Translations under genes and position numbers: made by a program | From: Pelagibacteraceae bacterium | GTDB lineage: Bacteria > Pseudomonadota > Alphaproteobacteria > Pelagibacterales > Pelagibacteraceae | Reading direction: 5' to 3' | DNA length: 64,000 bases | NCBI GenBank assembly: GCA_009693705.1 | Contig: SHWS01000003.1 | Span: 1 to 64,000, forward strand | Part shown: positions 53,549 to 54,593 of the stretch, in pieces | How positions within the stretch are numbered: the stretch's first letter is position 1 | Layout: every line of letters starts with the position of its first letter | The notes under the pieces: model-generated | Seen by the model: the letters and a program-made list of their open reading frames with translations, nothing else | Told to the model about the DNA's origin: nothing | The model's database searches: none

Positions 53549-53577
53549 TTGACATCCTTGGTATAAAAAAATAAAAA
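53549..53577 (+). promoter_or_regulatory. Putative promoter for the small basic peptide gene
   Basis: Perfect -35 TTGACA; A/T-rich -10 about 17 nt downstream (TAAAAA). Confidence 0.5.
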
Positions 53578-53578
53578 T

Positions 53579-53613
53579 AAGTTAATAACGAATCAGTCTG
53601 ATTCGTTTAACTT
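53579..53613. other. 5'-UTR inverted repeat (about 15 bp stem, 2-nt bulge)
   Basis: AAGTTA-at-AACGAATCA-gtc-TGATTCGTT-TAACTT. Confidence 0.7.
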
Positions 53614-53628
53614 AAAAGGGAGCTAAAG

Positions 53629-53691
53629 ATGGCCGCAAAAAGAAAAGCTGCAAAGAAGAGTAAGAAAAAAGCTAAAAAAAGAAGTAGATAG
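53629..53691 (+). CDS. Very short Lys/Arg-rich peptide (20 aa), histone-tail-like
   Basis: MAAKRKAAKKSKKKAKKRSR*; AAAGGGAG Shine-Dalgarno 5' of the ATG; flanked by promoter/hairpin and terminator. Confidence 0.7.
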   Translation: MAAKRKAAKKSKKKAKKRSR

Positions 53692-53711
53692 TAACTTCCT
53701 ATTCTTTAATT

Positions 53712-53752
53712 AAAAACGCTTCTCATCACATTTTGTGTGAGAGGCGTTTTTT
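53712..53752. terminator. Strong bidirectional intrinsic terminator
   Basis: AAAAACGCtTCTCAtCACA-TTTT-TGTGTGAGAgGCGTTTTTT, between the small peptide gene and convergent carD. Confidence 0.9.
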
Positions 53753-54593
53753 ATTCCTCTAAAGGCTCTTCTTCAGTTTCGGCAATTGGCTCTTCTTCTG
53801 GGGCCTCACTAATAGTTGTTTTTGGTATATTATCTATAGACTTTGCTTGGTTTTCTAAATTTCTTTTTAATATTTTGTCTAATTTTTTTCGGGTATCTTC
53901 TAATGATAAATTCAAAACAATTTGAAATTCTGCTAATATTCTTTCATAGGCTTTTTCAAACAGCTGTCTTTCACTATAAGATTGATCAACCATAAGATCG
54001 TCACCTTTGTTAAGGTCTCTAACCACTTCAGCAAGGTCATATATTTTTCCTGATGAAATCTTAGCTTCATATTCCTGTGCACGTCTACTCCACATCGACC
54101 TCTTTATTTTTGGTTTACTCTTTAAAATTAAAATACATTTGTTGACTTGATTGATTGTTGCTAATGGTCTTAGATGCGATTGTTTATTAACTGGTACCAT
54201 TCCGTTAGCTTTATCTTTTTCGAACCTAATCGTATAAGTTTCAACATCTATACCGCCTATAGTTATTTTTTTGAACTCTGTTATTTGACCCACTCCATGT
54301 TTTGGATAAACAACATAATCTTTAATTTTATATTCTTTTTTTTCAGTATCCTGTTTTTTTACCTTTTTAATTTCAGGTTTAACTTCATTACTTTTAGGAA
54401 TTCTTAAATTATCTATTTTATTATTATCAAAAGTTTTTACTGGTGCAGAAGTTTTTTCAGTTTTTAATTTTTTAGTTTGTTTAGTTTTTTTTGTTTTAAT
54501 TACTTTTGTTGAAGTAATTTTTTTTTTTGCTTTTTTTTCAGGTTTACTTTTAAAGATTTTCTTTAAAATATTTTTCGTACTTATTTTGTTCAT
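53751..54593 (-). CDS. CarD-family transcriptional regulator with Lys-rich N-terminal extension
   Basis: [37 protein letters not shown]...[14 protein letters not shown]-terminal ~95 aa Lys-rich, C-terminus acidic. Confidence 0.92.

Follow-up and report, generated by a model that had tools for sequence, protein, structure and literature searches.

A conserved small gene convergent with carD in Pelagibacteraceae encodes a histone H1-tail-like polycation and carries an invariant GANTC-containing motif at its promoter

The stretch of DNA analysed here, called the window, comprises 64,000 nt and harbours a very short gene on the forward strand, facing a carD-like gene. The features of the locus are the following:

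53549..53554, forward strand: -35 element TTGACA, with TTGAC in 193/193 distinct relatives
53572..53578, forward strand: probable -10 region TAAAAAT, read as TAAAAA (17-nt spacer) or AAAAAT (18-nt spacer)
53579..53613, forward strand: inverted repeat and predicted 5' hairpin, AAGTTAAtAACGAATCA-gtc-TGATTCGTTTAACTT
53589..53595, forward strand: CGAATCA, a GANTC-containing sequence that agrees with the complement of YGAKTCG
53617..53622, forward strand: Shine-Dalgarno (SD) sequence AGGGAG, 6 nt 5' of the ATG
53629..53691, forward strand: peptide ORF of 20 aa, MAAKRKAAKKSKKKAKKRSR, an H1-tail-like polycation
53712..53752, no strand assigned: bidirectional intrinsic terminator, common to the peptide gene and the convergent carD-like gene
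53751..54593, reverse strand: CarD-family gene of 280 aa (PF02559, PF21095), convergent and used as synteny anchor

The perfect TTGACA element described in the sequence-only reading was found at 53549-53554, followed by an AT-rich, non-consensus and poor -10 region. Transcription is predicted to start near 53585, and the inverted repeat (53579-53613), which had been placed at the predicted 5' end of the transcript, forms a stem in RNA folding. It includes a second GANTC at 53600-53604, and the perfect palindrome occurs once in the window's genome. The SD had been considered strong in a genome where such sequences are scarce. This was borne out, as a 4-nt SD precedes only 2 of the 62 window ORFs with 100 aa or more, compared with a background of 7.6%; this count, which assumes first-ATG starts, shows no SD enrichment. 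GGGAG or AGGAG is present in 103/103 relatives of the peptide gene.

RNA folding also revealed the terminator stem (~53716-53747), ~25 nt 3' of the peptide stop codon, in agreement with the terminator expected soon after the stop; a simple consensus scan of the region did not call a terminator. The T-tract shares bases with the stop codon of the carD-like gene, the stem lies in a region that folds with z = -5.4, and comparable structures are present in 99/103 relatives. In an Rfam search of the region only a tRNA exceeded its gathering score. The structured RNAs of Ca. P. ubique were surveyed in 2009, and that survey contains no such element and no mention of histone or CarD.

The ORF at 53629-53691 has the length and composition attributed to it before, as Lys and Arg account for 60% of the residues of MAAKRKAAKKSKKKAKKRSR. 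No other ORF of 18 aa or more in the 64,000-nt window reaches 55% Lys plus Arg. The short relatives consist of ~52% Lys, ~22% Arg and ~17% Ala, with no Asp or Glu and no hydrophobic residue except the start Met. Among relatives of the same length, differences at codon positions 1, 2 and 3 number 204, 330 and 542, and 53% of the codon differences are synonymous, compared with 28% in a null built with the same base changes; the pairs are not independent, so that these figures indicate a strong tendency but do not amount to a formal test. Peptides of 20-58 aa are found in the family, and this length variation keeps the reading frame. The ATG, the SD spacing and the frame are conserved as well.

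Relatives in which the frame is broken and the RNA structure kept were looked for and failed to appear. The sole disrupted frame seen belongs to genome G106 (L050/L100), where a homopolymer run near the end of the ORF contains one extra A, possibly an assembly error. The proposal of a dedicated monocistronic peptide gene is thus supported by the conserved frame, start, SD, promoter and terminator, together with the synonymous and third-position bias. A transcript that acts mainly as a structured non-coding RNA, composed of the 5' hairpin and the terminator with an incidental peptide, would agree with the strong fold (z = -5.4) and with the conserved hairpin, which is re-paired in some genera. 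We nevertheless regard it as highly improbable, given the conserved ATG, SD spacing and frame, the in-frame length changes and the synonymous bias; moreover, apart from the terminator, the conserved fold lies 5' of the ORF. As far as sequence comparison can tell, the carD-convergent locus is a real protein-coding gene, ancient in Pelagibacterales.

The neighbouring carD-like protein contains the domains CarD_TRCF_RID and CarD_C. In Pelagibacteraceae it possesses a Lys-rich N-terminal extension of ~85 aa, the CarD domain beginning at residue 88, and most CarD matches in other Alphaproteobacteria leave this extension unaligned. The orientation of carD bears on one further reading, in which the short ORF would be a leader peptide whose Lys and Arg codons stall ribosomes and attenuate a downstream gene. 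A short ORF rich in two amino acids and followed by a terminator has this appearance. However, carD converges on the ORF and has its own end at the terminator, both here and in the relatives, so a leader peptide would have no gene to control. With no co-directional gene downstream, attenuation was rejected on gene order and its probability is close to nil.

A DNA search gave matches in 95 of the 101 genomes of the genus, including 17/17 near-complete ones, although some of the weakest of the 95 are short A-rich stretches and not the peptide locus. Family loci were therefore gathered with carD as anchor, and nearly all of them possess a convergent Lys/Arg-rich ORF 3' of carD; the exceptions are L074, where a contig edge cuts the ORF, and the frameshifted L050/L100. 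In a search by composition only, covering all fetched loci, TTGAC and CGAATC were found upstream of 193/193 distinct Lys/Arg/Ala-rich ORFs, the one exception being a peptide of a different alphaproteobacterium, unrelated to the rest. For ~120 of the fetched loci, the search pattern had specified no more than the SD and the right arm of the repeat, so that the left arm is tested without bias in these as well. Named records, among them Ca. Pelagibacter ubique, place the group in SAR11, and the whole arrangement is kept across two families. No comparable Lys-rich ORF was found near ~30 carD loci in other Alphaproteobacteria, and a search of viral contigs did not reveal the element.

In the sister family, the carD-convergent locus encodes an H1-like protein of 40-99 aa with AAPKKK repeats (L148-L163), for example MEELKVIFAKARKKAKKKAAPKKKRKAAKRKPAKKK..., preceded by a matching TTGACA, CGAATCA hairpin and G-rich SD. 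Unlike the 20-aa peptide, this protein starts with an N-terminal segment (MEELKVIFAKA or MEDLKIIFAAA) before the repeats. In genera g5, g9 and g12 of the peptide's own family, the peptides are of intermediate length and contain PAKK or ATKK units. The resemblance to a histone tail, noted from the 20 residues before, is strengthened by this longer protein at the same locus and with the same promoter element, and the 20-aa peptide is best regarded as an H1-like tail protein in its shortest form. Two traits of H1-like proteins are present, namely a low-complexity, basic composition (K 52%, R 22%, A 17%, with the Lys/Ala/Pro-rich AAPKKK unit in the sister family) and the gain or loss of repeats with the frame kept, from 20 to 99 aa.

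No family match was found for the peptide in Pfam, NCBIfam or PHROGs. Its homology to H1-like proteins hence rests on locus, promoter and composition, and the label H1-like refers to its composition and locus, outside any named family; its low complexity prevents a homology test based on sequence. A class-wide search with an 85-aa H1-like protein, run without a positive control, gave 0 hits, and the open-access literature covered contained no report linking SAR11 with H1-like proteins. Hc2 of Chlamydia and BpH1 of Bordetella are Lys/Ala-rich repeat proteins that vary in length without loss of frame (PMC2848022), and in both respects the peptide resembles them. However, Hc2 has ~165-237 aa and BpH1 182-206 aa, compared with 20-58 aa in Pelagibacteraceae, where the peptide consists almost only of K, R, A, T and P and shares no family model with them. 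Similar disordered, H1-tail-like polycations form the C-terminal tails of Pseudomonas AlgP and PhaF; KPAA-repeat peptides bind DNA, and the tail of AlgP is described as H1-like (PMC9239181). In these proteins the tail belongs to a larger protein, whereas in SAR11 the tail-like peptide is the entire protein.

From its composition, and by analogy with Hc2 and BpH1 (PMC2848022) and AlgP (PMC9239181), we infer that the peptide may act as a polycation on DNA, possibly on RNA. The sequence-only reading had proposed a nucleoid, polyanion or ribosome-associated role. An organiser of polyphosphate granules akin to the AlgP tail was considered, since AlgP, with its H1-like tail, localises to such granules (PMC9239181) and the window's genome encodes a polyphosphate kinase. 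PF02503 was detected in the window's genome and in G244. However, it was not found in the other six of eight genomes (G012, G082, G103, G117, G109 and G105, reported as 99-100% complete), and PPK2 was found in 0/8; all eight keep the gene at the carD locus. The likeness to AlgP and PhaF is limited in the same way, the kinase not being found in most SAR11 genomes searched. This part of the earlier proposal is weakened, and a polyphosphate role appears very unlikely.

A ribosome- or RNA-associated basic peptide, such as a small ribosomal protein like bTHX or an RNA chaperone, would be a different function from that of a nucleoid protein. Pure polycations bind both nucleic acids, Hc2 has been reported as an RNA-binding protein that represses translation (PMC2848022), and a strong SD would fit a ribosomal protein. 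Nonetheless, lengths of 20-58 aa (99 aa in the sister family), changing by loss and gain of AKKK- or AAPKKK-like units, are unlike a ribosomal protein bound to one site, and only the charge is fixed, with no residue pattern. We therefore judge this function unlikely. The explanation that we favour, and hold to be reasonably probable on the comparative evidence, is an independent gene that encodes a minimal histone-H1-like polycation; this would coat DNA (or RNA), and its expression may be timed to replication. The peptide would be disordered, would neutralise and condense the nucleoid, and might also bind RNA, like proteins of the Hc2 type. The 5' hairpin would probably stabilise the leader, and the unusually good SD would give strong initiation on a very short ORF.

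A link to replication is suggested by the CGAATC motif, which is invariant in 193/193 loci and lies 38-42 nt after TTGAC in 102/102 loci. This invariant motif at a set distance from the -35 element, matching in sequence the GcrA/CcrM motif, is new with respect to the earlier reading. Its complement, TGATTCG, fits YGAKTCG, the extended GcrA/CcrM motif, which PMC7987155 attributes to Haakonsen et al. 2015. The GANTC lies within ~40 bp of the predicted transcription start, and the window's genome encodes both GcrA (PF07750, E = 1.5e-36) and a CcrM-type methylase (RAMA domain, E = 2.7e-19). CcrM has been reported in SAR11, with GcrA homologs said to share its pattern of conservation (PMC3973325).

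The palindrome around the motif forms a hairpin in 101/103 loci with a variable right arm, which contains G-U pairs or pairs in a shifted register (ATCACTTAA...TTAAGTGAT). In 19/103 loci the second GANTC is missing, so methylation cannot explain the whole palindrome. Loci of the sister family and the outgroup retain the first bases of CGAATC without change, although these bases are unpaired there. Since the left arm is invariant even where unpaired, and the hairpin persists in loci that lack the second GANTC, two constraints are present, one on the sequence and one on the hairpin. The inverted repeat therefore stands as an RNA feature, but the reading of it as RNA only does not, the left arm likely having a second role at the DNA level.

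The likeness to CcrM/GcrA promoters of Caulobacter consists of a GANTC with a YGAKTCG match near the predicted start, and of the presence of GcrA and CcrM-type genes. Unlike those promoters, the SAR11 motif lies inside a conserved hairpin, and its arrangement is unique to the peptide gene in the eight genomes searched. As the combination of -35 element and CGAATC was absent from all other promoters of these genomes, a shared regulon of this form lacks support. In three Pelagibacter genomes (L176, L177, which is the window's genome, and L178), the ccrM promoter region itself contains two conserved GANTC sites, GAATC and GAGTC, 11 nt apart, just after TTGACC. These sites, at the same place as in the peptide promoter, suggest a use of promoter GANTC sites in SAR11. 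In L179 and L181, which are more distant, a GANTC also lies near TTGAC upstream of a ccrM-type gene.

As to GANTC in the window as a whole, 108 sites were counted where dinucleotide composition predicts 169; the depletion concerns GAATC and GATTC but not GACTC and GAGTC. Their density is 2.2 per kb between genes versus 1.65 per kb, a slight difference with too few sites to conclude.

The promoter motif suggests, without proving it, that expression of the peptide gene is coordinated with DNA methylation. According to the mechanism proposed, the TTGACA promoter would be tied to the cell cycle by the invariant GANTC ~5-10 nt past the predicted start; CcrM would methylate this site, GcrA would read it, and the peptide would be made as the DNA replicates. 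An alternative that we take seriously, at somewhat under an even chance, accepts the H1-like peptide as real and treats CGAATCA as a site acting at the RNA level or bound by a factor other than CcrM/GcrA. It concerns regulation only and overlaps with the favoured explanation of the peptide. The hairpin maintained in 101/103 loci despite G-U pairs or a shifted register, the loss of the second GANTC in 19 loci, and the GcrA of Brevundimonas, which has no preference for the extended motif (PMC7987155), agree with it. However, the left arm is invariant even with C and G unpaired, so that pairing is insufficient as an explanation, and the genome encodes both GcrA and a CcrM-type methylase. The complete proposal, in which CcrM methylation at one invariant GANTC, read by GcrA, times a free H1-tail-like peptide that packs a streamlined nucleoid, in parallel to the S-phase expression of histones, is put forward as tentative and rather doubtful.

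Few cells on Earth are as numerous as those of SAR11, and these bacteria have lost many genes. A gene of 20-58 codons is nonetheless kept at every adequately covered carD locus examined, apart from the one cut by a contig edge and the one frameshift. If a role in chromosome packaging is true, the peptide would be about the smallest known H1-like protein, the tail alone. No study of CcrM/GcrA action in SAR11 was found in the open-access literature searched, and CGAATC, invariant and fixed in its position within the promoter, would offer a direct, testable handle on the roles of CcrM and GcrA in these bacteria.
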